Part shown: positions 24,523-43,316 of the stretch, in pieces
How the letters are laid out: every line of letters begins with the position of its first letter
Numbering within the stretch: position 1 is the stretch's first letter
Virus record (IMG/VR): IMGVR_UViG_3300031933_000215
Span: 124,001-188,000 of that record
From: a virus
Direction: 5' to 3' (one strand)
DNA: 64,000 nucleotides
Program-made: the position numbers and the translations under genes
Notes under the pieces: model-generated
Databases searched by the model: none
The model's input: only the letters and a program-made list of their open reading frames with translations
Told to the model about the DNA's origin: nothing

Positions 24523-24792
24523 TCATAAGATATGGCATTGTAAGGACCGACTATGCGGAAATACTGGCGGATCAATGATCCGCCAGAGATCAGTCAAAGT
24601 GAACATCGCCGTCATCAATTCTTCATGGATTCGGTAGAGTTCGGGTGTTCCCCAGTATTTTAGAGGAAGATTGTTTTTGTCGTTGAGTTTATTGGACACG
24701 AGCAGACACTCAGTCACGGCTTGTTCCAAGTCACACTCACTGCTTAGGTCGTGGATTTCAATGTGCGTAGGTCATAAGGCTTCTTTGCTCAT
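24523..24792 (-). pseudogene. Small ORF with in-frame TGA at codon 7
   Basis: An ATG at 24792 overlaps the previous stop (ATGA) and has AGGAGA just upstream, so it is an excellent coupled start. It reads MSKEAL, then TGA (24774-24772), then continues open in the same frame for 82 codons ('PTHIEIHDLSSECDLEQAVT', 'YWGTPELYRIHEELMTAMFT') to 24523. Options are a recent nonsense mutation, UGA-C readthrough, a sequencing error, or restart at TTG 24729 (68 residues). No function recognised. It is the last gene of the radical SAM operon, and a strong hairpin lies near its 3' end. Confidence 0.55.
24564..24586 (-). terminator. Strong hairpin inside the 3' end of the last operon gene
   Basis: A perfect 10-bp stem (CTGGCGGATC/GATCCGCCAG) with a 3-base loop is followed on the minus strand by TATTTCC. 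It lies inside the last small reading frame and may end the radical SAM transcript. Confidence 0.5.
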
Positions 24793-25208
24793 ATCTCTCC
24801 TAACTCCTCTTTACAATAGCCGATGATAACCGAGTACAGTACTGTTGCTTTGAAGGAAGTGGTCAGAACCGCCGGTATCAGAGTATCGTAGACGACCGCC
24901 GTTTCTTCGTTGTAAGGTGTGAAATGGTCGTCGTCGTGGAGTAGTTGCGGGTGAGATAAAACCGAATAAAAGTTATTGTCGTATTGTTTTGAAATATAAT
25001 CGGCGTAACAAATCGCCACGATGTAGCTCTTCGCCGGGAACTCCAACGCTTCGACGTCACCATTGATCATGTTCAACGCACTGACAATCACATTGGGGTT
25101 ATACGATCCCCCAAAGTAATCGGTTTTATTGCCTTCCCGATGAAAGCGTCTAAGACGGTCTAGCCAACCACCATTCAATGAGTGATTTGTACCCACTGCA
25201 TTCGCCAT
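24789..25208 (-). CDS. Protein of unknown function, radical SAM operon
   Basis: A 139-residue soluble-looking protein: 'NPNVIVSALNMINGDVEALE', 'AICYADYISKQYDNNFYSVL', 'VVYDTLIPAVLTTSFKATVL'. Its 5' end overlaps the preceding radical SAM gene by 59 bases in another frame; AAGGAAGG precedes the ATG. The alternating hydrophobic helices give no family match by eye. Tight overlap with a radical SAM gene suggests a partner, such as a recognition or accessory subunit, but this is inference. Confidence 0.65.
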   Translation of the reverse strand: MANAVGTNHSLNGGWLDRLRRFHREGNKTDYFGGSYNPNVIVSALNMINGDVEALEFPAKSYIVAICYADYISKQYDNNFYSVLSHPQLLHDDDHFTPYNEETAVVYDTLIPAVLTTSFKATVLYSVIIGYCKEELGEI

Positions 25209-26049
25209 CCAATCCTTCCTTTCGTCGATAGTGTTCTGTCAAACATGTACCCTTAAACTCACACGAGCGACACACATCCGAAAGCAGGGTGTGTTTTTCT
25301 TTTTGGGTCCATTCAAGGTACGCATTGAAATCCGGGAGTTCCAGGAAAAACTCCCGATCGGCGTCGTCGAACTCCAAGACCCCAAAATTGCCATTTGGAG
25401 TGATGTAGACATGGTCGTCCGAGAACGCGTTACGGACACCGTCAGCGACGTCGTTCAATAATGCTGTGTTACGTAGCTGGCTGTTTGGAAAACCCATTAC
25501 CCAGCGTTTCACGTACTCTACAAAGGCATTGTTTGTATTACCTCGATCATTGGCCTGATTGGGACTGTAAGGTTTGATTTCCACCGAGTTCAAGTTCGCT
25601 AACGACCGGATCAATTCGATTTGCTGATCGACGTCACCGGCCATCACTTCCGGCGTGGCCAAAACAATGACGTTTATCGGACGTGAAAACACCAACATGT
25701 TTGTGAAAACTTGTTCATGGTGGGGCCGGTGGTCAAAGTCATACGAGACGTTGACGTCGATATCGTCGTCGTATAGCCATTCCGACATTTGGTAGAAATT
25801 GGTGGTTATGGAAATGGGACCATCGTAATATCGCCGAACGACCCCCTTTAGATCATGGACGTACGTCTGATCCAACAGGGTCACTTCACCACCATAAATC
25901 TCAACGGCTTCAATTTCGGGGAGTTCCGAGAGACGATGGTCCAGGTGTGTCAAATCCAACACGCGTCGAGACCGGAGCTGGTCTTCGGTTAAATAACAGT
26001 TCGCACATCGGAAATTACATCGGTACAAAGGGTTTATCGATACGATCAT
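25150..26049 (-). CDS. Radical SAM protein (enzyme E of five)
   Basis: A 299-residue protein with the radical SAM cluster motif C11-x3-C15-x2-C18 in 'INPLYRCNFRCANCYL' and the SAM-binding 'VEIYGGEVTLL' at about residue 50. A C-terminal Cys group ('VCRSCEFKGTC', about residues 265-275) resembles part of a SPASM or twitch auxiliary cluster site. It should cleave SAM reductively to start radical chemistry; the peptide-modifying branch is favoured by the C-terminal Cys group. It is tightly packed, with 22 bases after the 2OG-oxygenase-like gene and a 59-base overlap with the next. The substrate is unknown. Confidence 0.88.
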   Translation of the reverse strand: MIVSINPLYRCNFRCANCYLTEDQLRSRRVLDLTHLDHRLSELPEIEAVEIYGGEVTLLDQTYVHDLKGVVRRYYDGPISITTNFYQMSEWLYDDDIDVNVSYDFDHRPHHEQVFTNMLVFSRPINVIVLATPEVMAGDVDQQIELIRSLANLNSVEIKPYSPNQANDRGNTNNAFVEYVKRWVMGFPNSQLRNTALLNDVADGVRNAFSDDHVYITPNGNFGVLEFDDADREFFLELPDFNAYLEWTQKEKHTLLSDVCRSCEFKGTCLTEHYRRKEGLDGECSGYKSLIEWWLARPS

Positions 26050-26071
26050 TTAACACCCCATGATAGAGAGG

Positions 26072-26662
26072 TTAGTAACCTGTGGGGTGACCAAAGAACA
26101 GATCGCATGCTATCGACATACGCATAACCCCAGGACTGGGTTTTACGTAGTGTCCCAGATAACTTGGGAACACGTAAACCGTATCGGCTTCGGGCGTTAT
26201 TTGGTAGTTGGCAAAGTGGTTTTTCGTTATGTCCCACTCATAACCACGACCGGCACAACCACGTGGGTCGACGAGAACCAGATTCCCTGGATTGGGAATC
26301 AGATAGAAAACAGCACTCACTTGAGCCCCGTTATGCACGTGCAGATCAAGACCGTCATTATTCTGACTATAAATACACCACATGCTGGTTCTATAGTCTT
26401 TGTCGTTCAGCGTAATGCCGAACTCTTCTTGAACGTAACGGAGCAATGCGGGTAGTATAACGTCGTCGTGCAGTTTGCTCAACGTAGGCCGTTCGGCGGG
26501 GTCGTATAAGTCAACCCTACTACCATACGCATTGTTATTGCTGTCCTCGTTGATCCCCATGGAAAATATCTCGCCGATGGCGACGTCTATATCCACATCG
26601 TGATCCTCGATGTGGTCTTTGTGGATCACGGTTTTCCAAGGTTCTATGCGCTCGTATGCCAT
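26072..26662 (-). CDS. 2-oxoglutarate/Fe(II) oxygenase-like protein
   Basis: A 196-residue protein. 'GLDLHVHNGAQVSAVFYLIP' followed by 'GNLVLVDPRG' and later 'VYVFPSYLGHYVKPS' with 'VMRMSIACDLFF' match the TIGR02466-type 2OG-Fe(II) oxygenase pattern (H-x-H-N-x ... P-S-x-x-x-H ... R). Such enzymes hydroxylate amino-acid side chains or small molecules using O2 and 2-oxoglutarate. The iron-binding His residues and the Arg for 2-oxoglutarate are visible; substrate is not. It lies within a radical SAM operon, so sequential modification of one protein is possible. GGGGA precedes the ATG. Confidence 0.7.
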   Translation of the reverse strand: MAYERIEPWKTVIHKDHIEDHDVDIDVAIGEIFSMGINEDSNNNAYGSRVDLYDPAERPTLSKLHDDVILPALLRYVQEEFGITLNDKDYRTSMWCIYSQNNDGLDLHVHNGAQVSAVFYLIPNPGNLVLVDPRGCAGRGYEWDITKNHFANYQITPEADTVYVFPSYLGHYVKPSPGVMRMSIACDLFFGHPTGY

Positions 26663-26671
26663 TGTCGTCCC

Positions 26672-27364
26672 CTATGGGTTTTTGAACGTGGGGTCGCCTG
26701 GAAGTAGGTACTGTTTTATTTTGATCACTTCCAACGTGGATGCATCAAACAGACAACCAAACGCCCGTTTCTTTCGTGTGGTATCACCGTCATTCGGTGG
26801 CGCAACATTAAAAAAGGTACCTATTTCCTTCCCAGTCAGGTCGGTGTAAAAATAGATGTCCCGGAAACGAAGTAATCGTTCATCGTTTAAATGTAAACCT
26901 ACACCGAAATAGTCGATTGGTACACACCCAGGCGGTAGCCGTGGGTATTGATGTCGTGCGATGTTGAGGTCGTACACCTTTAATGCTTTTTGTTGCGTCT
27001 CCAATTGTAGCTTTAACGTGTAGGACGTACCTTGAACAAAACCCTCGGGTAGCTCACAATCAAACAATGGGGCGACCTGAGCAACGTCACACCGACGGTA
27101 CGATATCGAAATAGTGTCTTCGGGGTAGTTGGTATTGTTTTTGCGGGTAAGGCCGATCAACTCCCAATTCTTCAATTCCGGCCACGGACTGGCTAAGATT
27201 TCAGGACTGTGTTCGATAGCCATATTGAACAAGGGTAGTACCGGTTCTGATAACACGGGGAAGTTGGGACGGTAGGTATTCTCGGACAACCCATTGGAAT
27301 CAAGGGTGATTTCCTTTGCAGTCGGGTCGACCCCATCGATGTTAGTCAAAGAAACATTAGACAT
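26672..27364 (-). CDS. Unknown protein with weak likeness to the tail domain family
   Basis: A 230-residue protein. 'EDTISISYRRCDVAQVAPLF' recalls the 'NIVLTYRRLDLARLF' landmark of the tail proteins at the start of the window, and the remainder is beta-rich ('YTLKLQLETQQKALKVYDLN'). It overlaps the upstream radical SAM gene by 8 bases, with GAGGT upstream of the ATG. If the likeness is real, the operon would encode a structural-like protein beside its modification enzymes. Confidence in homology is low. Confidence 0.6.
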   Translation of the reverse strand: MSNVSLTNIDGVDPTAKEITLDSNGLSENTYRPNFPVLSEPVLPLFNMAIEHSPEILASPWPELKNWELIGLTRKNNTNYPEDTISISYRRCDVAQVAPLFDCELPEGFVQGTSYTLKLQLETQQKALKVYDLNIARHQYPRLPPGCVPIDYFGVGLHLNDERLLRFRDIYFYTDLTGKEIGTFFNVAPPNDGDTTRKKRAFGCLFDASTLEVIKIKQYLLPGDPTFKNP

Positions 27365-28391
27365 TTCTTACCTCAATCAAATCGACAATACCAACTTCAC
27401 TAGCTTGATTCAGTTCCGCTTCCAACGCTTTCATCTTACTGCAATGTTCGTCAACCCGACAACTTTCCTGTGTATCCATGATCGTTTTCCGACATCCGTT
27501 ACACAAACTGAAGAGTGAACATCCCCAACAGTCGTCATGCATGGACAGGTATAACATCGAATCCTGAAGAGGTGTGGTGATTGCGTCACTGGCCATCTCA
27601 TTTTCAAAATCAATCGGAAACATGTCATCGTCACCAAATGCACCACAACTGTAATACGACCCGTCGGGATGTAGGTTACGAATTCCTTTATCGCAGTCAC
27701 GACTTATGGGACATGTCGTCTTAAGTCCGCCCAAGGAACGTATGAACTGCTGTGTGTTGTATTCCCATGGAGTCAACCCCGCCTTATGTATTTCGAGGTA
27801 TTTGGCGTAAATGTCCCCCATCAAATAAGAAATACTTTGACGCCCGCTGGCGAATGCCCAATTAAGCTTACACACTACGCCCATTTTTTTGGCCAGTCTG
27901 ACATTATCCAAGGCGCGTTGAACGTTACTCTCGTCTATCACTGAGATGAAATCTGGACGGTACCCGACCCGCTCTAAGAACAGGTCACTGACTGCCCAAA
28001 AGTCCTCTTCTAAAAACACCCGTGTACGAGTAATTAATCGACTGTCACCGTAATGGAAGGACGTCCCCACCCCGATTTGTGGGTGGCGAAACAGCTCAGT
28101 CCATTTGTCGGGCCGCTTATAAAAGTCCCACAAGTTGGTCGTGAAGCTGACAATGGTTTCGGTCATGCCGCGTTCTTCCAACAGCTTGAGGATATCCCAA
28201 TAATAGTCGGGCCTGAGCATCAACGGATCACCACCGTTAACAATGATCGTTTGGGTGTTCGGAAACCGATCCAGAAAGCGAGCAATATAGTCCAGATTGA
28301 GAACGTCTTTCTTATCGTCGGTTATGTTGGTGGAGCTGCAGAACGTGCAGGCGAAGTTACAAAGTTCCGTTGGTTTGATGATCAGATCCAC
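27357..28391 (-). CDS. Radical SAM protein with SPASM-like C-terminus (enzyme D)
   Basis: A 344-residue protein with C11-x3-C15-x2-C18 in 'KPTELCNFACTFCSSTN' and 'IIVNGGDPLMLRPDY' (about residues 50-60) for SAM binding. The C-terminal region has many Cys ('DCWGCSLFSLCNGCRK', 'ESCRVDEHCSKM'), the spacing expected of a SPASM domain holding auxiliary Fe-S clusters. SPASM enzymes modify peptides or proteins (thioether, C-C or epimer products). It is the first gene after the terminator at 28461-28495 and may have its own promoter. Substrate unknown. Confidence 0.88.
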   Translation of the reverse strand: MDLIIKPTELCNFACTFCSSTNITDDKKDVLNLDYIARFLDRFPNTQTIIVNGGDPLMLRPDYYWDILKLLEERGMTETIVSFTTNLWDFYKRPDKWTELFRHPQIGVGTSFHYGDSRLITRTRVFLEEDFWAVSDLFLERVGYRPDFISVIDESNVQRALDNVRLAKKMGVVCKLNWAFASGRQSISYLMGDIYAKYLEIHKAGLTPWEYNTQQFIRSLGGLKTTCPISRDCDKGIRNLHPDGSYYSCGAFGDDDMFPIDFENEMASDAITTPLQDSMLYLSMHDDCWGCSLFSLCNGCRKTIMDTQESCRVDEHCSKMKALEAELNQASEVGIVDLIEVRNV

Positions 28392-28460
28392 GGGTAAACT
28401 CCTGTTCGGTATTGGATGACTATATAGTTAGACGTCGGCGTTGAAAACAACCACACACAG

Positions 28461-28495
28461 CATAAAACCACGGCCTCAGGTACCGTGGTTTTATG
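28461..28495. terminator. Internal terminator of the radical SAM locus
   Basis: A 13-base inverted repeat CATAAAACCACGG/CCGTGGTTTTATG lies directly after the stop at 28496. It divides the radical SAM locus into two transcription units; CTATATAGT at about 28422 may contribute to a promoter for the second. Confidence 0.85.
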
Positions 28496-29479
28496 TCACC
28501 ATTGGTTTACTTTGGCGATTGTTTCCTTCGGTAAAACACACTCGGTGATTCCATAATCTTCCATGATTGACAACACGCGATGGTCCAGACACGTCGGCAG
28601 AAACGGACACTCGCCACACTCTTTCGTTTTGGTGGTGTAAGCGTACTGTTCTAAGATGACGGCGTCGTACTTCTTACGATAGTCCTCTACCCCGTCAACC
28701 CGGTACCGGTCACGGATTTGTATCAAATCTTCGTAAACGATGGGGATGGCGTAAAACTCATTCTCATAAAAAATGATTACGCGTTCTAGTTTGTCGTGCG
28801 GACTCACCACATCGACGTGTTGGTCGACCATACAGCCGTCGTTAGTCGCCTGAGTGGTGACGGTCACAGATTTTAACCAGTTAAACGCGCGCCGGTACTG
28901 TTCTGGATCGTTACTGGTTCGAGCAAACGACAGATTAAAGTCCACACCTTGACCGTACTGTCTGAGGTAAAAGTTGTTCAACGTTTCGTAGTTATCGACT
29001 ACCAACGACTGACTCAAATTCAACTGTGGGTGCAGGTACAGGTTCGGGAACCGGGCTTTGACGTCCCGAACCTTCTCGGCAATGACCGCATTGTAGCGTT
29101 CGTTCAGGTTCTTCGATTCCGGAATGACCACGTTGATCTGAAGTTCCTTCATACCAAGACGATCAAGGGCGTTCAATACCTGTAAGTCGGGTTTCACCAT
29201 GGTGGAGTTGACAACCAGTCGATCAAACCTTTTGATTAATTCAGTCAACCGAATGTCATTCAGGATCTCCATCGTGTTGGTGGCGGTGAAGATATCGGTA
29301 CTACCCAAAACGACCGCATATGGGTCGAGGTGTTCTAGGAACTCATAGGCCACGCGGTACATCTTATCCGTAGCTTTATTGGGGGAATCACGATCAACAT
29401 GGCAACCCGCGCAATTGAATGCACAACCCGCTAAGATCTCCAACTGCAGTTCGAATGAGTTGAATTTTTCGATGTTCAC
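28496..29479 (-). CDS. Radical SAM protein (enzyme C)
   Basis: A 327-residue protein. The cluster motif C19-x3-C23-x2-C26 is in 'EILAGCAFNCAGCHVDRDS'. The GGE-type segment is replaced by 'AVVLGSTDIFTATNTM' (about residue 60). A C-terminal 'ECGECPFLPTC' resembles one SPASM or twitch site. Beta-alpha repeats such as 'LVVNSTMVKPDLQVLNALDR' fit the TIM-barrel core. The start overlaps the stop of the upstream radical SAM gene (ATGA), implying coupled synthesis. Substrate unknown; the altered GGE region suggests a specialised or divergent enzyme. Confidence 0.85.
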   Translation of the reverse strand: MNIEKFNSFELQLEILAGCAFNCAGCHVDRDSPNKATDKMYRVAYEFLEHLDPYAVVLGSTDIFTATNTMEILNDIRLTELIKRFDRLVVNSTMVKPDLQVLNALDRLGMKELQINVVIPESKNLNERYNAVIAEKVRDVKARFPNLYLHPQLNLSQSLVVDNYETLNNFYLRQYGQGVDFNLSFARTSNDPEQYRRAFNWLKSVTVTTQATNDGCMVDQHVDVVSPHDKLERVIIFYENEFYAIPIVYEDLIQIRDRYRVDGVEDYRKKYDAVILEQYAYTTKTKECGECPFLPTCLDHRVLSIMEDYGITECVLPKETIAKVNQW

Positions 29480-30480
29480 GAAATCACTCCATAGAGTCGT
29501 TTAAACTCACAATGTTTGTTTGTGATGTTCACGTGGTCACTGTGTAGAAAACAACCCAACCCGCAACGCTGATAAAACTCACAACTCAGGCACTCGCGTT
29601 CTTGAATGAACCGGACCTCGGACTCATGGATGTTGTCAACAACAGTCGGGTCCGATTTGAACTGGTCCCGATCGGCCAAAATCCGACAAGAGCCCGTATG
29701 TCCTGTCGGAAGAATGATGAACGAACTCCGACAGGTCGCTGTGTTGTGGTGATTCTCACGAAACCCTTTGACTGGTTGACATTCCGGATAGTGTTTATCC
29801 AACCACAGGAAAAAGTCAACCAGTTCAACATCACTGGGCTGTAAAATTTCAGCGTTATCTTCGGGTGAATAATAGTCAAAGAAAATCGGGTAGTCCTGGT
29901 AAAGTCGATCAAACACGACGTTGGAACCACGCATGAATCGTTCAATGTTAGGTCGGGTCAACACCACGGAAATGTTTGACAGCCAGGGTTTGAACTTGGC
30001 CAGGTTTTCCTCAAACAGTTTAAGCGTCTGAGAGTTAAACCGACCCGCAGCATCGTAAGACGTGCAAAAGGTGAACGGAATCAGCAGTTCTTCCAATGTC
30101 TTGATGAACCGCATCACCCGCTCGGCCTTCTCGAACACTAAGTTGGTCACGAAATTGATTTCACAGTGTTTAACTGATGTCACTACCCGATGACAGAACT
30201 CTACATAGTCGTCGAATACTCGATCGGGGAGTTCGTCCATGAACAACTCCCCACCCATGACGTTCACACTGTAAAAATCGTGATCGTTGGTGTTATTAAT
30301 GACAACGCTTGCTTTCTCAACAATCTCATCAACACCAGTCCAGTCGCTGTGGTCCTGCCAACAAAACCCACAGCTAAGGTTGCAGCGCTCAAAGAAGTTG
30401 ATGAAAAATTCTTTATTCTGTCCCCGCTTTGCTTCCACTATCTCCACCAGCGGTATCAGGTCCGGGTTGTTCGTGGCCAT
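29476..30480 (-). CDS. Radical SAM protein (enzyme B)
   Basis: A 334-residue protein. C33-x3-C37-x2-C40 is in 'NFFERCNLSCGFCWQDHSDW', and 'VNVMGGELFMDEL' gives the GGE motif at about residue 77. The C-terminus has 'CLSCEFYQRCGLGCFLHSDH' and a further 'KHCEFKRL', consistent with a SPASM-type auxiliary cluster. The 5' end overlaps the upstream gene by 68 bases, the 3' end overlaps the next radical SAM by 4. As with its neighbours, protein or peptide modification is the likely chemistry; the target is not evident. Confidence 0.87.
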   Translation of the reverse strand: MATNNPDLIPLVEIVEAKRGQNKEFFINFFERCNLSCGFCWQDHSDWTGVDEIVEKASVVINNTNDHDFYSVNVMGGELFMDELPDRVFDDYVEFCHRVVTSVKHCEINFVTNLVFEKAERVMRFIKTLEELLIPFTFCTSYDAAGRFNSQTLKLFEENLAKFKPWLSNISVVLTRPNIERFMRGSNVVFDRLYQDYPIFFDYYSPEDNAEILQPSDVELVDFFLWLDKHYPECQPVKGFRENHHNTATCRSSFIILPTGHTGSCRILADRDQFKSDPTVVDNIHESEVRFIQERECLSCEFYQRCGLGCFLHSDHVNITNKHCEFKRLYGVIS

Positions 30481-31165
30481 TGAGTATCTCCAAAGCGTAT
30501 TTGTTTAAAAGCAACCAGTTGGGGTTTTCTTTATCCCCAACGAAGAAGTGAAACAGGTTCTTTCCGTTGAACATGTATTCTTCAAACTGGACAGGGAAAT
30601 AAAACTGCCGGTAGTCCACCGCATCTCGGATAGAGAAAAACAACTCGAAGAACGAAGGAATCTCAAACAGCCAGACAACGTTAACACCGATATATTTCGG
30701 GTCGTTAATAACACCGTCATATCCCCGGAGATCTGGGTCTTTGTCATCGTCTATTGCTTTGATGTAGTCACAGTACTTGACCATCGAAGAGCAGAACAAG
30801 AAATACCGGGCCAGCAGGTCGGAGTGTTCTTCAACAAATTCATCTAAGAATCCATCTGGGGTTTCGAATGTAGCGATCCCAGAGGTGTCCCCCTCCATGA
30901 AATGGATCAGTACCAACAACACAAGAACGTTGAGTTCTTCACACTTAAAGAGTGTGTTGATTTCCATGTAAACACTGAGTAATTCTGAGAGTTCTTCTTT
31001 TGACAACGTCTCCACGTTGATCCGTGTTTTGACGTTCAGGTTTGCCAGGTAAAACACAAAGGGTTTCCCCTTTATTTTCGAATTACTGTAATCGACAGTA
31101 TACACTTTGTCGTTTTCGGCAATGACGTTGTGTAGGTCACTGATGGGGAGTGGTACGGTAATCAT
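30413..31165 (-). CDS. Unknown protein, divergent relative of the three-gene family
   Basis: A 250-residue protein. It starts 'MITVPLPISDLHNVIAENDK' and has 'KPFVFYLANLNV' and 'LFHFFVGDKENPNW', weakly echoing the 'VYINSLG' and 'WSxFFG' landmarks of the three proteins encoded upstream. The tail is a low-complexity 'GPDTAGGDSGSKAGTE' overlapping the next gene. It contains no catalytic motif that I recognise. Expression is coupled to radical SAM enzyme B by overlap, suggesting a shared function. Confidence 0.6.
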   Translation of the reverse strand: MITVPLPISDLHNVIAENDKVYTVDYSNSKIKGKPFVFYLANLNVKTRINVETLSKEELSELLSVYMEINTLFKCEELNVLVLLVLIHFMEGDTSGIATFETPDGFLDEFVEEHSDLLARYFLFCSSMVKYCDYIKAIDDDKDPDLRGYDGVINDPKYIGVNVVWLFEIPSFFELFFSIRDAVDYRQFYFPVQFEEYMFNGKNLFHFFVGDKENPNWLLLNKYALEILNGHEQPGPDTAGGDSGSKAGTE

Positions 31166-31175
31166 GACGTTTGCC

Positions 31176-32210
31176 TCATCCGTTCAGATTCATTTGTTTC
31201 AACACGTCTCGGTCTGCGTGGTACAAGTACCCGATGAAATTGTTATTCATGTTATCCCGAAATTCCGTGCGACCAAAAATTTGACTACAGTGGGTATTTA
31301 TATCCATGTTGACCAGGTCTCTGGCTTTCGTTACCGTGAACGAACCCTCAGGAAGAACCCTGAGTAGGTGGTTCAGGAATGGATCGGTGGTTCCATTCTT
31401 CGCATGGACTTTTTCGACAAGCTCACGTATTTCCTTGTGGTGCCTTTTAATAAACGCCACATTCCCTGGGTGGTTATCTGGATTGAACAGCACTGTGTCC
31501 TCCAGTGCTTCGATCTGGTCGTCGATATCGTCCCGTTCCAAGTCAATATCAAACCCAAAGTTTTGCTTTAGGTTGTAGATCCCATATAACAAGTCACGTC
31601 GCACGCCCACGAAGTCCCATGCCACTGATTTCCAGAGGATTGTTTCCATGCGCTCTACGAACGCGGATACGTAGCGATCAGATGGGTCAAAATCAACCAA
31701 GAGAACATGCGCCAGTAAGTATTCAAAACTGATACGCTCTTTCAGTTCGGCTGGGACGGGGCGCGGTTCTACTTCCTCATACCAAGCCCTTACAGCATCC
31801 AGGGTGGGGATTGTGATGTTTCGAAAACCGTCTTTTCGCGAACCTTTGGTACTGGTGCGACTTCCATGCTCGTACTTGTGGTTCACCGCATTCAGTTTCA
31901 AGAATCGATGTACCATCTCCACACTTGCCAGTGGGAATAAGGATCGCAGCCAGACCACCAAAAAGTAATTCAGGGAACGCTCGTCTATTAAAATGGTGGT
32001 CTTTTGTCCGATAGGCGTCAGGCATTCAACAAATGTGAATAGGTCACCAAAGTCTCTCTCGATTGCGTCGACCGACACAAACTGATACAATGGCCTAGGG
32101 CCATGCGTTACACGACACTGTCCAAGTGGTCCTACATAGACCAAGTTGTTGCGACCTACATTTCCAGTGAAATCGTAATCAATATAAACCTTATCCAACA
32201 AATGTAACAT
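31176..32210 (-). CDS. Unknown protein, radical-SAM-locus family copy 3
   Basis: A 344-residue protein paralogous to the next two genes upstream. Shared landmarks, in order: an N-terminal 'MLHLLDKVYIDYDFTGN', 'MVHRFLKLNAVNHKY', 'ISFEYLLAHVLLVDFDPSDR', 'ERMETILWKSVAWDFVGVRR', 'LLYGIYNLKQNFGFDIDLER' and a C-terminal 'IFGRTEF...NFIGYLYHAD'. The middle is mostly helical. No known family recognised. Three tandem copies imply either recognition of different substrates or subunits of one complex. Confidence 0.65.
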   Translation of the reverse strand: MLHLLDKVYIDYDFTGNVGRNNLVYVGPLGQCRVTHGPRPLYQFVSVDAIERDFGDLFTFVECLTPIGQKTTILIDERSLNYFLVVWLRSLFPLASVEMVHRFLKLNAVNHKYEHGSRTSTKGSRKDGFRNITIPTLDAVRAWYEEVEPRPVPAELKERISFEYLLAHVLLVDFDPSDRYVSAFVERMETILWKSVAWDFVGVRRDLLYGIYNLKQNFGFDIDLERDDIDDQIEALEDTVLFNPDNHPGNVAFIKRHHKEIRELVEKVHAKNGTTDPFLNHLLRVLPEGSFTVTKARDLVNMDINTHCSQIFGRTEFRDNMNNNFIGYLYHADRDVLKQMNLNG

Positions 32211-32232
32211 TATTTTTTTTACCTGCCGTCAG

Positions 32233-33270
32233 TCAGCCGTTCATTTTGAAATACTTCAAGGTCTCCGGCGTCAGATTGTAAAGATAATTAACAAAGACGC
32301 CGTTCGTGTCTTTGGTCATCTTCTCTCGACCAAAAAGAAAAGACCAGAGTGATTCTCTGTCGACAGCCACCAGTTCTTTCAGAACACTCCCGGTGAATGG
32401 TCGTTCCGGGTCTAAAAGGTCAAACAAGAAACGCCGATACTGGTCACCGTACCCAAGAAGCTCATCCACTTTATCCATCATCTTTCTGATGTACGCGTAA
32501 TCCGCTTTGACGACATCCACGTCTTTATAGGTTATTGCCGGGTCGAAAAACCGCTTAACCTCAGGCTGATTAAGTTGGTACTCGATATCATTTCGATCAA
32601 AATTAATCGGCAGACCAAGTGTTTTCTTCAACCTAAACCCATTGTAGAAAGCCGCCATTCGACGCTTAACAAAATCCCTAGCGCAGGATATCCACAACAT
32701 GTGTTCAATTTTCTTAGAAAGTTGATCTACATGCGGGTCAGCGTCGTCAAAATCCACACTTAAGGAGTGAGCCAAGAGTGTTTCATAGCTCAGGTGTTTT
32801 TTGAGTTCCGAACAATACCCACTACCATGTTTCGAACCCGCGTAAAAGCGTTTCGTGTCGTCCAGTGTTGGAGCCGGAAGCTGGTCAGCGTAATGATCGT
32901 AAGCAAACCCCCTAACTCGAACAAAACGATGGTGTATGTAGAAGGTCCTCAGGATTGCGTGGATGATTTCCACCGGCATCTCAGGATACACCGCTCGATA
33001 GTGGGTCACCACTAGCTGGTACATGTCGTCAATGTCCAACATTAACCACACGTCGCCTTCAGTAAGAATCAATGTTTCCATGAATGTAGGTAGGTCGCCA
33101 AAAGCATCCAACGCTTCTTCGAGGTTGGTGAATTCCATGAGTCCTTCGGGATGGAATTCATTTTGAGTATGCGTACGGTCGTCCAGATAAATGTACGAGT
33201 CGGTTGGTTGTTTCAGGTCAACGCTCGTAAATGCAAAGTCCGCCCGGACGTCATCAATTAAGTGCAGCAT
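32233..33270 (-). CDS. Unknown protein, radical-SAM-locus family copy 2
   Basis: A 345-residue paralogue. The start at 33270 aligns with copy 3 ('MLHLIDDVRADFAFTSV') and has AAAGGAAA upstream; a longer frame to 33399 overlaps the previous gene by 127 bases and is not needed. Landmarks are 'ISYE'-like 'LSYETLLAHSLSVDFDDADP', 'IEHMLWISCARDFVKRRM', 'LKKTLGLPINFDRNDIEYQL' and 'LWSFLFGREKM...NYLYNL'. Function unknown; helical composition suggests protein-protein interaction. Confidence 0.65.
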   Translation of the reverse strand: MLHLIDDVRADFAFTSVDLKQPTDSYIYLDDRTHTQNEFHPEGLMEFTNLEEALDAFGDLPTFMETLILTEGDVWLMLDIDDMYQLVVTHYRAVYPEMPVEIIHAILRTFYIHHRFVRVRGFAYDHYADQLPAPTLDDTKRFYAGSKHGSGYCSELKKHLSYETLLAHSLSVDFDDADPHVDQLSKKIEHMLWISCARDFVKRRMAAFYNGFRLKKTLGLPINFDRNDIEYQLNQPEVKRFFDPAITYKDVDVVKADYAYIRKMMDKVDELLGYGDQYRRFLFDLLDPERPFTGSVLKELVAVDRESLWSFLFGREKMTKDTNGVFVNYLYNLTPETLKYFKMNG

Positions 33271-33272
33271 GG

Positions 33273-34322
33273 TTATGTTTCCTTTGTTGGGGACAGGACC
33301 ATATCTGAAATCTTTACAGGCGTGACTGAATGCAGGTAACTGAATATAAGGGAGCCTGTTCCCCATAATGCATCGTCGATACCGAAGAATGCACTCCACG
33401 GACGCTTCCGGTCGGCGTCAATCAGCTCGATGAATTCGTCGTGTGTGATCTCATGGTCCTTCAAGAAGAAGCTAACGGCGAGCTCCTTGAAGTCCTCTAC
33501 AATGTTATTGCGTTTGTTGTTAACGCTAATAGCGTGGTGGATTTTCTGGGCGTTAGCTGCAGTTATCTCATTAAGTGATTCATCAAACCCCAGCGCTTCA
33601 TCCAGCTTTGAGATTTGTTCCTCGATGTCGTCCGCCAGCGGATCGATATCTAGGTCTAGGTTTTTCTTTAGACCGAAGATTCCTAATAACAGCCTACGGC
33701 GCCATGTGGTGTAGTCAGTCACCAACATTTGCCACAACAACGCTTCCATCCGTCGTCTAAAACAGATGACATAAGGATCTGACTCAGAATAGTTACACGC
33801 ATGTGCGTGAACCATAAGGTATTCAATAGAAACGTTCTCTTTTACCAAATCGGAGAACTCACCATTTACTCCCGCCTCTTCGTACCAAATGCGCGTCTGC
33901 ATTGGTGTCGGGACTGTAAGTCCGAGTCTACCCTCACGATTAATGCTCGCGCGGGTGGAAAGGCGAATCTGGCTGTATTTTTGGTCGATCGTCACCATTC
34001 TCAAGAACCGATGTGTGTTCTCAAGCGTGATGTTTGGAAAAATACCACGCAAGAAATGAACGTAAAAACGGTTTAGATCTTGCTCGTCGATGAACGCCGT
34101 GACATCACGACCACTGTGAATAATGGATTCGATGAATCCATTTATACCACCAGGGGCGTCTATAAGCACATCAAGATTGGGGTACTTCATCAGCGGAGTT
34201 GCGTCTTGAGAAAAAGCCTTAGACCCGAGGGAGTTAATATAAACAATATCTTTCGGGTTGGCCCTAGCGTTCGGACTGGAAAATGAGTAATCAAGCGACA
34301 GGCCGTTTGTCAACCGGATCAT
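33273..34322 (-). CDS. Unknown protein, radical-SAM-locus family copy 1
   Basis: A 349-residue paralogue beginning 'MIRLTNGLSLDYSFSSPNAR', with 'LENTHRFLRMVTIDQKYSQI', 'VSIEYLMVHAHACNYSESDP', 'RRMEALLWQMLVTDYTTWRR', 'LKKNLDLDIDPLADDIEEQI' and 'PWSAFFGIDDALW...FSYLHSV'. Its start overlaps the stop of the Cys-His-tailed substrate-like gene (ATGA), so the two are translationally coupled. That coupling makes a chaperone, recognition or immunity-like role for the substrate protein worth considering; nothing in the sequence proves it. Confidence 0.65.
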   Translation of the reverse strand: MIRLTNGLSLDYSFSSPNARANPKDIVYINSLGSKAFSQDATPLMKYPNLDVLIDAPGGINGFIESIIHSGRDVTAFIDEQDLNRFYVHFLRGIFPNITLENTHRFLRMVTIDQKYSQIRLSTRASINREGRLGLTVPTPMQTRIWYEEAGVNGEFSDLVKENVSIEYLMVHAHACNYSESDPYVICFRRRMEALLWQMLVTDYTTWRRRLLLGIFGLKKNLDLDIDPLADDIEEQISKLDEALGFDESLNEITAANAQKIHHAISVNNKRNNIVEDFKELAVSFFLKDHEITHDEFIELIDADRKRPWSAFFGIDDALWGTGSLIFSYLHSVTPVKISDMVLSPTKET

Positions 34323-34861
34323 CGTCTGCTCCTTGAACCGTGGCAGTTGCTGTGGCAGTTCGAATGACAGACTGACAGATCCACGATCTCACCGTTGTGA
34401 ATGCGTTCATATAACTCGTTCTGAACTGTTTGGATCAGGTCGGATAGATTTGACCGATCAGCATCGTTTCGAGTGGAAATGTAGGTCGGGTCACCACCGG
34501 CGGTTTTCAAGCTGTGTATGCTCTGGCGGTAATTATTGTTCAGTGCTGCAATACCCCACTCTTTATCGTGATCGCCGTTTGTGTAATTACTGCCAGAATA
34601 ATGACGCGCGGTGTAAACCTTGCGCATTGAAGTACAACGTTCCGCTTCGGCTTTGATCACGTCAACAACGTTACTTGCATCGACATCTCCGGTGTTTGCA
34701 TCAGTACCCCTATCAAAATGAGACAGTTCCACCAGCGGACTTTGGTCCATGTACTTGTCGTCCCGGGCAGAACCCTTCCACCATTTCGCTTGGTCCTTGG
34801 CGTACTGGTTGATGTTGTTATTGACAGCCGCGTGAAAATCACTCCGTTTTAAATCAGCCAT
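34319..34861 (-). CDS. Putative RiPP-like substrate protein with (CHSN)2CHGS tail
   Basis: A 180-residue hydrophilic protein. The first 160 residues are helical and polar ('SDFHAAVNNNINQYAKDQAK', 'NLSDLIQTVQNELYERIHNG'), like a leader or carrier domain. The end is 'CHSNCHSNCHGSRSRR', with Cys165, 169 and 173 at exact 4-residue spacing, each followed by His. A short Cys-rich repeated C-terminal core directly after a SPASM radical SAM gene (1-base gap) is the layout of ribosomally made, post-translationally modified peptides. It could instead be a virion protein modified at its tip, or a metal-binding tail. GAGG lies 9 bases before the ATG. Confidence 0.75.
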   Translation of the reverse strand: MADLKRSDFHAAVNNNINQYAKDQAKWWKGSARDDKYMDQSPLVELSHFDRGTDANTGDVDASNVVDVIKAEAERCTSMRKVYTARHYSGSNYTNGDHDKEWGIAALNNNYRQSIHSLKTAGGDPTYISTRNDADRSNLSDLIQTVQNELYERIHNGEIVDLSVCHSNCHSNCHGSRSRR

Positions 34862-34862
34862 G

Positions 34863-35999
34863 TTAGAATACCTCTACAACTGGGATCGTTTTTGTATCCG
34901 AAGTCAGCGCGGACGGCTCTTTCTCATACCGAATGCCTTCCTCACCCATGAACCCATTGAGTACTTCCTTCAGGATGTCCTGATCGGTGTTTTTCATGGA
35001 CCGCATCATGGACTTTGGAGAAGCACAGATATCGCCCTGCCAATTAAGTTGATGACAATCGCCATTACAAACGTCAAATACGTCACAACTGAAACAGACT
35101 TCGTTCAGGGTGCTTTCGGTTGCAATGTTACATCCACGTCCTTCCGAGAACACGATATCTGAAATGGTTTGATCCAAGGTTCCGAACGTCGTCTCAGGGG
35201 CGCCATTGGGACACCCGCCAATGGTACCATCGGCGTTCAGGGTTAGAATCTTCTGTTCGCATTCCCGACTACGGCACCCGGAAAACGTATTGAATACAGT
35301 GCTGGTCAGCAGGCTTTCTAGGAACATGTTCAAGATCTTTTCGTACGCCTTGTGTTCCAACGTCTGTTCCCACATTTTCAAGAACCACGCGTCCAACTCC
35401 AGATTGGTAGGAAAAATACCGGTGTTCTCACGGGCGTTACCATTCTCAGTGATGCGTTCAAAGTTGATGAACGCAACCCCAAGGTTGGTCATCTTGTTGA
35501 TCAAGTCGATTGGCTCAACATCCATCAGGTCTTTGGACACGCAAATCATGACCGTGACGTCTATGCCTTCGGCCACTAACTTACGGACGTTTTCTTCCCA
35601 CAGCGCTTCTTGGTTGCGGTTCCCTTGCCAACGGATGCTGTAATCCCAGGATGTCCCGATTGAAGTTCCTGCCACTTTCTTCAGAAACGCCAGTCGGTCA
35701 TCTGTCAGCTTATACGTCAGGTTGGTTTGAATACCCCATGTCAAGTTATCCCAGAGTCCATCCAGCTCATCGTAAACCTTTTCCATTTTGTCCAGCGGGC
35801 AGAGCATCGGCTCGCCACCATGGAACGAGATGTTGGCGGAACGGAAGGTGGGGAACTGAGCTTTCAGTCGGTGAAAGAAGTCAATGGTGGCATCCGGGTC
35901 AAACCAACCCTTCTTCCCGTTGGTACCACTTGTGAAACAGTGCTGGCAGTTTAACTGGCAAGTTTCGGTAGTTTTCAGGTAGACCATTAAATCACGCAT
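34863..35999 (-). CDS. Radical SAM/SPASM maturase-like protein (enzyme A)
   Basis: A 378-residue enzyme. The start at 35999 (GAGG 7 bases upstream) places C14-x3-C18-x2-C21 in 'YLKTTETCQLNCQHCFTSG', close to the N-terminus as in anaerobic-sulfatase-maturase-type SPASM proteins. 'ANISFHGGEPMLCPLDKM' gives the GGE motif (about residue 65). The C-terminal 'CRSRECEQKILTLNADGTIG' followed by 'VCFSCDVFDVCNGDCHQLNW' is a full SPASM pattern. Such enzymes form thioether, C-C or formylglycine-type changes in peptides. It directly precedes the Cys-His-tailed protein, its most likely substrate. First gene of the operon. Confidence 0.9.
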   Translation of the reverse strand: MRDLMVYLKTTETCQLNCQHCFTSGTNGKKGWFDPDATIDFFHRLKAQFPTFRSANISFHGGEPMLCPLDKMEKVYDELDGLWDNLTWGIQTNLTYKLTDDRLAFLKKVAGTSIGTSWDYSIRWQGNRNQEALWEENVRKLVAEGIDVTVMICVSKDLMDVEPIDLINKMTNLGVAFINFERITENGNARENTGIFPTNLELDAWFLKMWEQTLEHKAYEKILNMFLESLLTSTVFNTFSGCRSRECEQKILTLNADGTIGGCPNGAPETTFGTLDQTISDIVFSEGRGCNIATESTLNEVCFSCDVFDVCNGDCHQLNWQGDICASPKSMMRSMKNTDQDILKEVLNGFMGEEGIRYEKEPSALTSDTKTIPVVEVF

Positions 36000-36075: not shown

Positions 36076-37005
36076 TTACACCCACTGTGCCGGCCAAACG
36101 ACCTTCCAACCACCGTTGACGTAGGCTTGCAGTTGATTGTTACGGACCCGCAGACTGGTCTCGTCTGTAGAACCAATTCGCACGTAACGCCCGTCGTGGT
36201 GATTCACGTTCGGGTTAGCGTGGGTGGCAAGTGCGACACCCACGGCGTGTGGTGACATGTACCGGGTTTTGGTGGACATGTCCGCCGCCTGGGTATCCGT
36301 GGCCATTTTGTAGTTTTCGACGTCCCCCAGTCCCACCTGGGCCTTAGTAACCTTGTGTGGGTTGGTGCCGTCTTCCATGTGGTCGACCAAGCGGTTCTCG
36401 ACTCGGTTTCGATCTTCGGCTGCTTCTTCAAACAACATCAACGCGTAGGCACGCGTTTCATCGTGAAGTGCTTGGTCACCAGCCATGATCGCCTGAACAA
36501 TCCGTTCCAGTTCGGTGACAACCGGCTCAAACCCATACAGTTCCCACAAGGCGTGCAGGTGGCCAGCCGCTGGGTACTCGTTAGGCTTGCCGATGATGTT
36601 GGCCCACTCCACGGGCCGATCTTCTTCAGCCAGTGTGTCGATCACCTGCTGGAGTGCGTCGGTTGAAACTGCAAAGTCTCCACCCACTACCTGGTAATCC
36701 AGGAACACACTGGTCGAAACATTGGGGTTAACAACGATGATCGCCCCACAGACTTCCAGACCGCTTCGGGTCGTGGCCCGTTCGTACAGGTAAGTGGCGA
36801 TATAATCATCGCCCTTACGAAGCTCTGCACCTGACACATCCCGGAGGACCATGTCGCGGGTGTAGAACCCGCCGTAATTGGGAACCAAGACCCGGTAGTT
36901 ACCGGTGGTCACGGCGGCGTCCAGATCGTGTCGCTCGCCCAGGATGCGGTTATCCGGATTCCGGCCCGTCAAATCCAACGGGTATTTGTTAACAATGAGT
37001 GACAT
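36076..37005 (-). CDS. Tail-fibre/baseplate-like structural protein
   Basis: A 309-residue protein. The N-terminal 130 residues ('LVPNYGGFYTRDMVLRDVSG', 'TSVFLDYQVVGGDFAVS') match the N-terminus of the next gene upstream ('IPQAAPFYVESFEIRDQATG', 'VSMTYQTIGGHWGFSDQ'). 'DHMEDGTNPHKVTKAQVGLG' with 'VENYKMATDTQAADM' is the NPH-x-VTKxQVGL repeat common in phage tail fibres. The C-terminus ('GGWKVVWPAQWV') looks like a small tip. Likely a fibre or fibre-attachment protein. Confidence 0.75.
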   Translation of the reverse strand: MSLIVNKYPLDLTGRNPDNRILGERHDLDAAVTTGNYRVLVPNYGGFYTRDMVLRDVSGAELRKGDDYIATYLYERATTRSGLEVCGAIIVVNPNVSTSVFLDYQVVGGDFAVSTDALQQVIDTLAEEDRPVEWANIIGKPNEYPAAGHLHALWELYGFEPVVTELERIVQAIMAGDQALHDETRAYALMLFEEAAEDRNRVENRLVDHMEDGTNPHKVTKAQVGLGDVENYKMATDTQAADMSTKTRYMSPHAVGVALATHANPNVNHHDGRYVRIGSTDETSLRVRNNQLQAYVNGGWKVVWPAQWV

Positions 37006-40752: not shown

Positions 40753-43242
40753 TCAGGCTATGGTTACGTGTTGGTTGTAGGTTTGTGGGACGGTGATGTT
40801 GTTGGGGTCCAAGACACAGATCTCGGCTTGGTTGAACGCCCCGTGTACGGATGAGAAGTGGGAGATGTAGAAGATCTGGTTGACCTGACCCAACTCCATC
40901 ATGCGGTTCAAGAACGGAATCAGGTTCTGACGGTGTTGCTCGTCAAAGGTACTGCCAAACTCATCCAGGTACAACGGGTAGTGGGAGATGTTCAAGAACT
41001 TCATCACCAGCAGTTTGAACGCGAAGTTCACGATGTCCCGTTGGGAACTGGAACCCAAAGCGATGTCTGGGGCCGTGACCGACCCGTTGTTAACGTCCAG
41101 TGGGAACTTGTACGTCAGTTCGTCTTTTTCCATCGGGGACGGCATGACTTTCATTGGGTACGTCCAAATCTCATCACTGACGCTGTTGATGAGTTTCACC
41201 ACCACCTGCATGAACCCCATTAAGTAACGACCAATCAACCCGTCGGTGGGGCCGAGGGCCTTCACCAAGGCCTGATACTCTTTTTGGGCCGTGACGCTCT
41301 GGTCGTGTTGGGTTTGTATCTCACGCAGCACCCCTTCACGGACTTCCATCCGCGATAGCGACTCTTGTTCCTGAGCCAGCTGTATTTGCAAGTGACGGGT
41401 CTCTTCGGAAATGGCGTCCTGATACAGCGACTCCCGGTGCGTGTCCATGTCTTTAAAGAACGCTTCCAAATCCGCAATGGTGCTTTCCATGGCTTCTTTG
41501 AACCGAACCCGGTTGCGTTTGTGCGCGTCCAGTTCTTGAATTTCACGACCCAGTGTGCGTAACCGTTGGGTGGTGTTCTCGATCTCCTGTTCCAGTTGCT
41601 TACGGTGACGGTCGGTGCGGGTCAAAGCGTCCCGATCAATGGCATCCACGTAACGCAAGCGGTGTTCGATCACCTCCACTTCTTGTTTGAGTTCGTTGAG
41701 TTTGTTCAGGTTCTGCATGGCGTTGTTCCAGGACAACGCGTCGTTGAGATAATCCTTGGGCTGGCGGAACATGATTTTGTGCTCAACACACACGTCCCAA
41801 ACCGGCGCAAACCGTTGGTTTTCATTCACCAACTTCCGGAACGCCCGAACGTACGTCATGTACTCCTCGAACTTCTCTAGGTACTCCTTGAGGTGTTCCA
41901 TCTCCTTTTCAATCGCCGCAATGCGGGGACCACGTTCATCAATGGCTTGTTGGATGGCTTTGACTTCGGTTGGGTTCACCCCCGGTTGGAAGTCGTGTTC
42001 ACAGTTCGGGCAATGAACCGTCTCACACCCTTTGAGTCGTGACAACCGCCGCGCATCAGTGTTCTGATCGTTGTCCAAGGCCAGATGGGTTTTCTCCAAG
42101 TGCCGGTACCGCTCGTGGGCCTCTTTACCTTTCGCACTACTGAAACGCTCGTCGGCGTTGTTCGGGATAGTCTGAATCAAGTTGACCCATTCGTCGAATA
42201 CTTGTGCCAACGTCTCATGCGGACGACGGTCTTGGGGAATGTCCACCAGCGGGAAGATGCCTTGATAGTGATCCACGGCTTGTTTGGGTTCGAGCATCTG
42301 TTGGCTCAGTGACTTGACCTGTTGGCGCAGATCGTTGATTTGGGTCTCACTGAGTTCCGTGTCACGACTGGGAGCTTGTTCGTTGAGCTTCTGAAACTCC
42401 TCGGTCATGCGTTCCAACAACGTTTGCTGGCGACGGTACTCCTCGTTCTGTTCCGCACAGTACGCCTCAAACGCCGTTTCGTCTTCCAGTCCCGGAATGG
42501 CGTCCGGCAGCTGATAACGCAGTAGTTTCTCTGCCCGATCTGTCAGTGTCTTCAGATGATCACCCACCTCCCGTTCGTCCCGGTAATTCGATTGCACTCC
42601 GGCCTTGCGCTCTTCAAACAGCCGATCGAGTTTGGCGGTGAGTTCTTTGATGCGGGTTCGGTGATGACTCAAAACGTTGTCATCCGGTAGATCGTGATTC
42701 TCCTGACCCATACGCTTGGTCAGATGCTTCACCACGCCCTGCTGGTCTCGATGGGCCGTCTTGGCTTTATGGAACACGTTAAAGGCAAACCCCAAATCCA
42801 CCGGCGCCAGACGGGTGAGCCACTCCCGACGTTTGGCCGTGCTCAGGGAGGTAAACGGGGTGATGCCCACCAAGAGGTTATGGATCTCTCGGTTAAGACC
42901 GAACTCGTCCCACACCAGCTCCTTCTGAACCGCAAAGGTGTTGCCCTTGTTCAACTCCTCACCGTTCTTGACGAAGGAGTGATGGCCCGACCCGCCAGTG
43001 TACTCAGACACCAGTTCGTAATTGTCGTTCAAGTTACGCAGTCGCACTTCTTTACGACCACCTTTCGCAAACCCACTGTGGTGTGCAGGGAGCGGGGTAA
43101 GTTCTTCCAGGACCGACGACTTGCCCGAACCGTTACTGCCGATCAACAACTGCAGGTCCTGTTTCGGTCGGAACTCAAAACGTTGAATGTTCGACAACAT
43201 CAAACGCTTGTACTTTTCCAACAGCAAATAAGTAATGCGCAT
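40753..43242 (-). CDS. SbcC/gp46-like recombination ATPase (SMC/Rad50 type)
   Basis: An 829-residue protein. The start at 43242 ('MRITYLLLEKYKRLMLSNIQ') is chosen for family fit and AGAGAAAG upstream. Walker A is 'GSNGSGKSS' (about 35-43). Long coiled-coil arms flank a zinc-hook 'HCPNCEHDF' near residue 400. The C-terminal ATPase part has a signature-like 'SSSQRDIVNFAF', Walker B 'YPLYLDEFGSTFDE' and H-loop 'YISHFSSVH'. Such proteins pair with an SbcD/gp47-type nuclease to process DNA ends; no such nuclease is in this window. Length is shorter than bacterial SbcC (about 1050) and longer than T4 gp46 (560). Confidence 0.88.
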   Translation of the reverse strand: MRITYLLLEKYKRLMLSNIQRFEFRPKQDLQLLIGSNGSGKSSVLEELTPLPAHHSGFAKGGRKEVRLRNLNDNYELVSEYTGGSGHHSFVKNGEELNKGNTFAVQKELVWDEFGLNREIHNLLVGITPFTSLSTAKRREWLTRLAPVDLGFAFNVFHKAKTAHRDQQGVVKHLTKRMGQENHDLPDDNVLSHHRTRIKELTAKLDRLFEERKAGVQSNYRDEREVGDHLKTLTDRAEKLLRYQLPDAIPGLEDETAFEAYCAEQNEEYRRQQTLLERMTEEFQKLNEQAPSRDTELSETQINDLRQQVKSLSQQMLEPKQAVDHYQGIFPLVDIPQDRRPHETLAQVFDEWVNLIQTIPNNADERFSSAKGKEAHERYRHLEKTHLALDNDQNTDARRLSRLKGCETVHCPNCEHDFQPGVNPTEVKAIQQAIDERGPRIAAIEKEMEHLKEYLEKFEEYMTYVRAFRKLVNENQRFAPVWDVCVEHKIMFRQPKDYLNDALSWNNAMQNLNKLNELKQEVEVIEHRLRYVDAIDRDALTRTDRHRKQLEQEIENTTQRLRTLGREIQELDAHKRNRVRFKEAMESTIADLEAFFKDMDTHRESLYQDAISEETRHLQIQLAQEQESLSRMEVREGVLREIQTQHDQSVTAQKEYQALVKALGPTDGLIGRYLMGFMQVVVKLINSVSDEIWTYPMKVMPSPMEKDELTYKFPLDVNNGSVTAPDIALGSSSQRDIVNFAFKLLVMKFLNISHYPLYLDEFGSTFDEQHRQNLIPFLNRMMELGQVNQIFYISHFSSVHGAFNQAEICVLDPNNITVPQTYNQHVTIA

Positions 43243-43316
43243 GTCGTTACTTTCTCTATTTTGGCGGTTAATCTCTATAGGAAAAGACCCCACAGTAGAA
43301 GTTCAGGAGACCTCTA

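Follow-up and report, generated by a model that had tools for sequence, protein, structure and literature searches.

The DNA analysed here is a window of 64,000 nucleotides (bases 124001-188000 of the 231,818-bp virus record IMGVR_UViG_3300031933_000215 in IMG/VR), and the subject is one tight operon on its minus strand, running from 35999 down to 24789, in which five radical SAM proteins accompany a small protein with a Cys-His tail that may be their substrate. The gene order is rA, CORE (the Cys-His-tailed protein), three P2 genes, P1, rB, rE, rC, F230, a 2-oxoglutarate-Fe(II) (2OG-Fe(II)) oxygenase, rD and S139 (Table 1), and the genes overlap or nearly touch, as an initial annotation made from the letters alone had described, with intergenic gaps of -127 to +104 bp. 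The Cys-His-tailed protein that this annotation listed was confirmed, and no other gene of the set is as informative; its likely role as substrate had gone unrecognised there.

All five CxxxCxxC proteins were found where they had been claimed (CQLNCQHC, CNLSCGFC, CNFACTFC, CNFRCANC and CAFNCAGC), each with a significant radical SAM profile match. The six-frame scan of the whole record with Pfam Radical_SAM returned exactly these five and no sixth (E = 1e-4 to 1e-10), three of them under the strict Pfam cut-off though significant, while the phage radical SAM family PHROG_1802 matches four of the five (E = 5e-26 to 2e-53) and rE weakly, yet rE is positive with Pfam Radical_SAM. The SPASM/twitch-like C-terminal Cys groups noted for most of them are seen in rA, rB and rC, with shorter sets in rD and rE; rA has the canonical SPASM pattern C247..C263..C302xxC305xxxxxC311xxxC315..C325 and scores 26.5 bits with the SPASM model TIGR04085 (cut-off 27), with rB and rC lower. 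All five proteins stay below the cut-offs of the NCBIfam maturase models, the scores and cut-offs of rA being 66/349 bits for the anaerobic sulfatase-maturating enzyme (anSME), 26.2/370 for HxsB and 24/350 for the CXXX-repeat maturase; the His-Xaa-Ser equivalog tests thus failed for rA with HxsB and also for rC with HxsC (26.9/267.9 bits). The closest solved structures to rA, remote ones, are anaerobic sulfatase-maturating enzymes (PDB 4k37-4k39, E = 3e-10). The oxygenase assignment held as well, with PF13759 above its cut-off and a PHROG_81 match. A group of four related unknown proteins had also been proposed, and this was right for the three P2 proteins (BLAST E = 8e-30 to 5e-47) and not for P1 at 30413, which has no detectable relation to them. 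P1 usually lies directly after CORE, in viral loci and in those of predatory bacteria described below, and its AlphaFold2 (AF2) model has a predicted local distance difference test (pLDDT) of 89, with no PDB counterpart to the fold. Since Pfam, PHROG and NCBIfam revealed no leader peptidase or exporter among the cluster proteins of the window, we call the system similar to those making ribosomally synthesised and post-translationally modified peptides (RiPP-like), and not a RiPP system.

The C-terminus of CORE, CHSNCHSNCHGSRSRR-stop, fits the signature (CHxS)2CHxSRxRR-stop. A DNA pattern for CHxxCHxxCHxxRxRR was searched in IMG/VR and returned at least 119 stretches, and the signature lies beside these enzymes in at least 115 IMG/VR stretches and in several cultured jumbo phages. 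Among the matches listed (119 stretches), the frame stops right after RxRR save for a few obvious chance matches, and conservation extends to positions that the pattern does not fix (S(-13) in 108, S(-5) in 105 and G(-3) in 105 of 118 unique tails). The circularity of a motif-based search was avoided by a sample of 80 viral loci retrieved via rA alone, 7 of which are cut by contig ends; in 73 of the 73 complete ones the downstream gene ends in a CH repeat, as the full motif (48), as CHxxCHxxCHGS[I/L]-stop (22) or as CHxxCHxxHxxRxRR with the third Cys lost (3). The COREs of loci L154-L195 (22 loci) end in CHSNCHGSCHGS-I/L or nearly so, without RxRR, which means that one phage group can do without the arginines and not without the CH repeat. 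As a control, the same pattern gave 88 matches in 257 Gb of bacterial and archaeal genomes, and a reading of these as widespread bacterial RiPPs was rejected, because most are random and without enzymes; about 14 contigs have an open reading frame (ORF) that stops at the motif, and the enzymes are nearly always close by, with one exception at a contig edge.

Alignment of 59 COREs left C165, H166, C169, H170, C173 and H174 as the sole invariant columns, with R177, R179 and R180 nearly invariant, while the N-terminal domain is only about 20% identical to that of the window. An invariant tail on a domain that has drifted this far is the pattern expected for the substrate of a RiPP-like modification system, and to judge from these sequences the tail is very probably the substrate. 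CORE has no Pfam or NCBIfam family. In the AF2 model (pLDDT 80) the N-terminal part is predicted to fold as an alpha/beta domain (pLDDT reaching 95), and the last two tail blocks are of low confidence (74 and 51), as would be expected of a carrier domain bearing a modified peptide. The strict four-residue spacing of invariant Cys and His could also point to a metal site, in which the three CH pairs, perhaps hydroxylated or cross-linked, would bind Fe, Zn or Cu in a fibre or spike tip, for stability or as a metallophore-like bait aimed at host metal receptors; HxH metal sites are known from T4 gp37 and some phage spike tips, and 2OG-Fe(II) and cupin/JmjC-type enzymes could hydroxylate such residues. 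This seems improbable to us, as a set of radical SAM enzymes is not required for plain Cys/His sites, a metal site would not account for the near-invariant R and S/N residues, and there are variants without the third Cys or the RxRR tail and one, in genome G089, with a shuffled order (CHSNHCSHSNHGSRGRR).

Table 1. Features of the operon and its upstream neighbour, in window coordinates.
Feature	Position	Strand	Support or remark
Upstream virion/tail-fibre-like protein, 309 aa, first gene before cluster	36076..37005	-	PHROG_2163 virion structural protein E=1.2e-96; PHROG_13857 tail protein E=2e-28
rA, radical SAM/SPASM protein adjoining CORE gene	34863..35999	-	PHROG_1802 E=1.5e-53
CORE, 180 aa, proposed substrate	34319..34861	-	C-terminal signature; folded N-terminal domain, flexible tail LSVCHSNCHSNCHGSRSRR
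Conserved tail of CORE, codons for CHSNCHSNCHGSRSRR	34322..34369	-	stop codon 34319-34321
P2 paralogue 3, possible substrate-handling partner	33273..34322	-	related to 31176 and 32233; distant P2-type genes in similar slot of other phages
P2 paralogue 2	32233..33399	-	as listed overlaps P2 paralogue 3 by 127 bp; true start probably internal to ORF
P2 paralogue 1	31176..32210	-	BLAST relation to 32233 and 33273
P1, conserved helical accessory protein	30413..31165	-	PHROG_20767 E=2e-41
rB, radical SAM protein, SPASM/twitch-like Cys set	29476..30480	-	PHROG_1802 E=5.5e-33
rE, divergent radical SAM protein	28496..29479	-	Pfam Radical_SAM E=1e-4; PHROG_31457 E=1e-11
rC, radical SAM protein, SPASM-like Cys set	27357..28391	-	Pfam 38.6 bits (cut-off 29.5); PHROG_1802 E=8e-48
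F230, protein without family match (Pfam, PHROG, NCBIfam)	26672..27364	-	weak profile relatives in some loci
2OG-Fe(II) oxygenase	26072..26662	-	PF13759 E=2e-12, 47.7 bits (cut-off 27); PHROG_81 E=6e-25
rD, radical SAM protein, short C-terminal Cys set	25150..26049	-	PHROG_1802 E=5e-26; Pfam E=4e-4
S139, small conserved protein at cluster end	24789..25208	-	PHROG_20737 E=2e-16; near rD in many phages, also in predator clusters
68-aa ORF, doubtful member	24523..24729	-	ORF only, without family support

The operon genes are found together in related genomes, and the same genes in similar order in named phages and about 200 viral loci make the arrangement far beyond chance; together with the radical SAM folds, this supports the dedicated protein or peptide modification system that had been proposed. 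One scan of IMG/VR gave 376 rA relatives, and a radical SAM gene is present in the stretch examined at 197 of 203 CORE loci. Where at least 7 kb downstream of CORE was available (35 loci), there are 3-9 radical SAM genes per locus, and rB occurs in 32, rC in 29, rD in 28, rA in 27 and rE in 19 of them. The rE type is the one amplified to 5-6 copies in other phages, and a second architecture, found at 27 loci, has a tandem pair of COREs with as many as six rE genes (these loci include L014, L037, L066, L080, L082, L098 and L099; the COREs are mostly of 125-145 aa). Multiple copies of one enzyme type acting on the same short repeat suggest that these might be position-specific enzymes. A cupin/JmjC-type protein is encoded in most relatives of the cluster; in L056, L082 and L099 the cupin-type gene, rA, and rC or rD are placed elsewhere within the locus.

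Among cultured jumbo phages, tblastn with rC found relatives in seven records, belonging to Pseudomonas phage pPa_SNUABM_DT01 (DT01), Burkholderia phages SURPRISE13, FLC6 and FLC8, Agrobacterium phage Atu_ph07 (two records) and Sinorhizobium phage Phosso, with rC 48-54% identical to its counterparts. The gene order is similar in five cultured-phage loci, the cupin/JmjC-type gene standing before rA in these five, and the gene after rA ends in CHTSCHTSCHSARGRR in DT01, CHSSCHTSCHGSRGRR in SURPRISE13 and FLC6, CHTSCHASCHSSRSRR in Phosso and CHSSCHASCHNSRSRR in Atu_ph07; the CORE genes of these phages are annotated as hypothetical. Two consecutive dihydrofolate reductase-like genes lie within the Burkholderia phage clusters (L007:13855-15032, L010:13816-15029), and a GIY-YIG nuclease gene stands immediately before the FLC6 cluster. 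An SMC/SbcC-like ATPase is encoded at window 40753-43293, on the same strand and a few kb upstream of the operon, and an annotated SbcC-like gene is upstream of the DT01 cluster too. Scans of the window for tRNA and Rfam families gave no match.

What lies before the cluster points to fibres. The nearest same-strand gene upstream was classified in 153 viral loci, and in 128 of these it belongs to one of three fibre/virion families, which corresponds to the adjacency to a fibre gene known for gp38-like tip adhesins. A fibre with collagen repeats and a Peptidase_G2 intramolecular chaperone (PHROG_5073 tail fibre, E = 9e-40) precedes the cluster in 108 loci at a median distance of 4 bp, another fibre-like family with weak support in 12, and the PHROG_2163 virion/tail type of the window in 8, with homologues of the window gene 36076-37005 before the cluster in L006, L007, L016, L017 and others. 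For Atu_ph07, the text of Attai et al. (PMC6102473) gives the virion gene clusters found by electrospray ionisation tandem mass spectrometry as coding sequences 31-76, 170-215 and 284-329. FDI40_gp170 in RefSeq numbering, that is, coding sequence 170, is the CORE gene, and gp132 and gp140 (tail sheath) in that text agree with RefSeq numbering. One virion cluster, as given in the text, thus begins exactly at CORE, which suggests, indirectly and from an interval boundary, that CORE is probably among the detected proteins and associated with the virion.

These observations also bear on whether the product might be released. As a secreted RiPP, the N-terminal part of CORE would be a leader, and the CHxS tail would be modified, cleaved and set free as an antimicrobial or signal by which the infected cell or the predator gains against competitors. 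RiPP loci do usually pair several SPASM-type maturases with a precursor whose C-terminal repeat is conserved, the best NCBIfam relatives of rA are peptide or protein maturases (anSME, DarE, CbpB, DynA), and two ABC-exporter-like genes, recognised by eye, flank one predator cluster (L315:11393-14783). We nevertheless judge it unlikely, given the peptidase and exporter not found in the window's cluster, the folded N-terminal part and COREs of about 100-370 aa, which do not resemble a short leader plus core, the position of the cassette after fibre genes, and the Atu_ph07 interval, reported as a range, that opens at CORE.

Predatory bacteria have the cassette as well. Of the genuine genome matches, six lie in metagenome-assembled genomes of Bdellovibrionota, and rA was found in five of the 144 Bdellovibrionota genomes searched. 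The clusters sit on contigs of 382, 219, 228 and 593 kb that carry bacterial genes, with a cytochrome oxidase subunit II near the cluster of genome G004; as a prophage check, Terminase_6C was searched in the eight genomes with genuine motif matches, with none in seven and, in G008, matches on other contigs. Pilin-like proteins that carry or are related to Peptidase_S74 (S74) are encoded within about 10 kb of the cluster in G001, G002, G003, G004 and G092, S74 being confirmed by Pfam in all of these but G003, where the protein is a profile relative, and N_methyl being present in two. That the same cassette lies beside different fibre types in phage and predator argues for a fibre function rather than a merely inherited neighbourhood.

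Several further features were seen in the predator loci. Near rA and P1 there are Bdellovibrionota variants with reshuffled tails, ending in NYCHSNHCSHSNHGSRGRR (L326:14562-15167) and FICHSNCYTPPPKSRSRR (L323:10297-10608), which are natural variants useful for telling which residues matter. Small proteins resembling those with a twin-arginine signal adjoin the fibre genes (L313:430-729, L316:5575-5952, L318:12040-12411, L324:9214-9594), and since CORE has no evident signal peptide, its export by hitch-hiking is possible. A conserved protein ending in GRHWVKVK or similar stands by the S74 fibres (L316:7153-7704, L318:14546-15145, L324:10929-11525, L327:14129-14752, L329:6565-6864); the copies tested belong to no Pfam family, and a search of viral loci gave no clear relative. 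An extra protein of 560-570 aa occurs in two clusters (L313:9628-11307, L324:13568-15277), the L313 copy being a B12-binding radical SAM protein. In the rA tree predator rows are nested among phage rows at more than one place, and a single acquisition of the cassette by predators was therefore not upheld. The rA of the window groups with predator rA (L313, L315, L324 and L327) and four viral contigs (support 100/97), which could hint at a Bdellovibrionota host or at recent exchange.

Starting from the observed enzyme families, conserved tail, gene linkage in phages and predators, and fibre adjacency, we propose, with a probability of about 60%, that the operon encodes a RiPP-like modification system together with its substrate, CORE, which would be mounted on the virion as a chemically modified fibre-associated adhesin. 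As the operon structure suggests, CORE would be produced together with the fibre, and rA-rE, the 2OG-Fe(II) oxygenase and the cupin/JmjC-type protein would modify Cys, His and Ser of the C-H-x-S/N tail, probably stepwise, to judge from their families and constant linkage; the P1 and P2 proteins may present the substrate, which is our guess from their linkage to it. The modified CORE, rather than acting as a free toxin, would become a virion component, with the tip of the tail fibre encoded immediately upstream, or a site close to that tip, as its most likely place; the gene adjacency, the proteomics interval and the predator parallel suggest this placement. There the modified Cys/His peptide might contact or react with the victim surface, and predatory Bdellovibrionota would combine this cassette with tail-fibre-like (S74) adhesins that are anchored by pilin. 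Of the three targets named by the initial annotation (a secreted peptide, a virion part or a host protein), we hence favour a part of the virion or fibre whose gene belongs to the operon itself. More tentatively, and at somewhat under even odds, this may be attachment machinery of a kind not recognised before, exchanged between tailed phages and predators, in which a multi-enzyme radical SAM cassette would build a non-natural Cys/His peptide on the C-terminus of a fibre-tip adhesin, so that the virion or the predator would touch its victim through a chemically modified contact, which might be covalent or involve metal binding.

Several points weigh against this proposal. The CORE fold has no PDB match and a PDB sequence search gave only chance matches; six entries of a viral structure library match it, apparently other COREs or unnamed proteins. 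Two of them are 13-14% identical to CORE, organism and length identifying one as the CORE of Atu_ph07 and length making the other probably that of DT01. CORE contains no recognisable fibre-binding domain. The fibre adjacency in phages stems partly from shared ancestry, the Atu_ph07 virion interval, given as a range in the text, also includes the radical SAM gene gp171, the predator genomes were assembled from metagenomes, and no S74 fibre was seen near the cluster in G069 and G089 (19 kb examined). We found no report of any CORE modification in the literature. Neither did we find a publication on the CH tail or on such genes linked to fibres, most subscription journals being outside the search, and a literature search for phage or viral RiPPs gave nothing relevant, motif strings in papers being only noise.

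Protein tips without modification are the usual explanation of phage adsorption, and no virus is known to us for which a radical-SAM-modified virion peptide has been demonstrated. This common cassette occurs in cultured Pseudomonas, Burkholderia, Agrobacterium and Sinorhizobium phages and also in predators, which likewise need to grip bacteria; the 16-residue tail is a concrete, checkable substrate for unexplained jumbo-phage radical SAM genes, and the enzymes are a new candidate set of peptide-modifying enzymes for one short sequence.

Compared with known systems, the operon resembles the radical SAM/SPASM RiPP systems (sactipeptide, ranthipeptide, cyclophane, HxsA-D) in joining SPASM-type enzymes to a small protein with a repetitive C-terminal Cys/His/Ser peptide. 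It differs from them in NCBIfam scores far under the cut-offs, in having 3-9 radical SAM genes per locus plus a 2OG oxygenase and a cupin, in the large folded N-terminal domain of CORE, in its phage fibre neighbours and in a window cluster without a recognised exporter or peptidase. The SPASM Cys pattern of rA is like that of anSME, which modifies Cys or Ser of a protein substrate; unlike there, no sulfatase was recognised in the cluster and CORE has no CxPxR motif. Many radical SAM genes in a single phage are also a feature of Campylobacter phages CP220 and CPt10, with 11-12 such genes in one phage and five in an exchangeable module, whose neighbours in CP220 are an amidinotransferase and sugar-nucleotide transferases (PMC2853527), none of which lie at the window operon. 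No CHxxCH protein was found in the 49 kb of CP220 examined, nor any significant relative of P1, rB, rD or rE, and we rejected the module as the same system for its different neighbours, its weak model matches (best 30 bits) and the missing CHxxCH protein. Such modules with non-peptide neighbours could suggest that the enzymes described here act on host tRNA, lipid, sugar or nucleotide, with CORE as a scaffold whose tail would hold an Fe-S or other cofactor. That seems very improbable: the CP220 enzymes are the weakly matching ones just mentioned, no conserved RNA, sugar or lipid enzyme is seen here, and the constant partner is CORE.

T2-type gp38, a small protein whose gene adjoins that of the fibre, is displayed at the tip of the fibre, and it is to our knowledge not enzymatically modified; CORE shares with it the place of a small protein next to a fibre gene, whereas no similarity in sequence or fold was shown. 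Likewise, we know of no modification cassette described for the MAT fibres of Bdellovibrio. These tail-fibre-like trimeric adhesins, S74 and non-S74, are those by which Bdellovibrio recognises its prey (PMC10769870). The fibres described here differ in their pilin-like N-termini, pilin not being mentioned in the text of that paper, and they are alike in that S74-type fibres adjoin the CORE cluster in five predator genomes.

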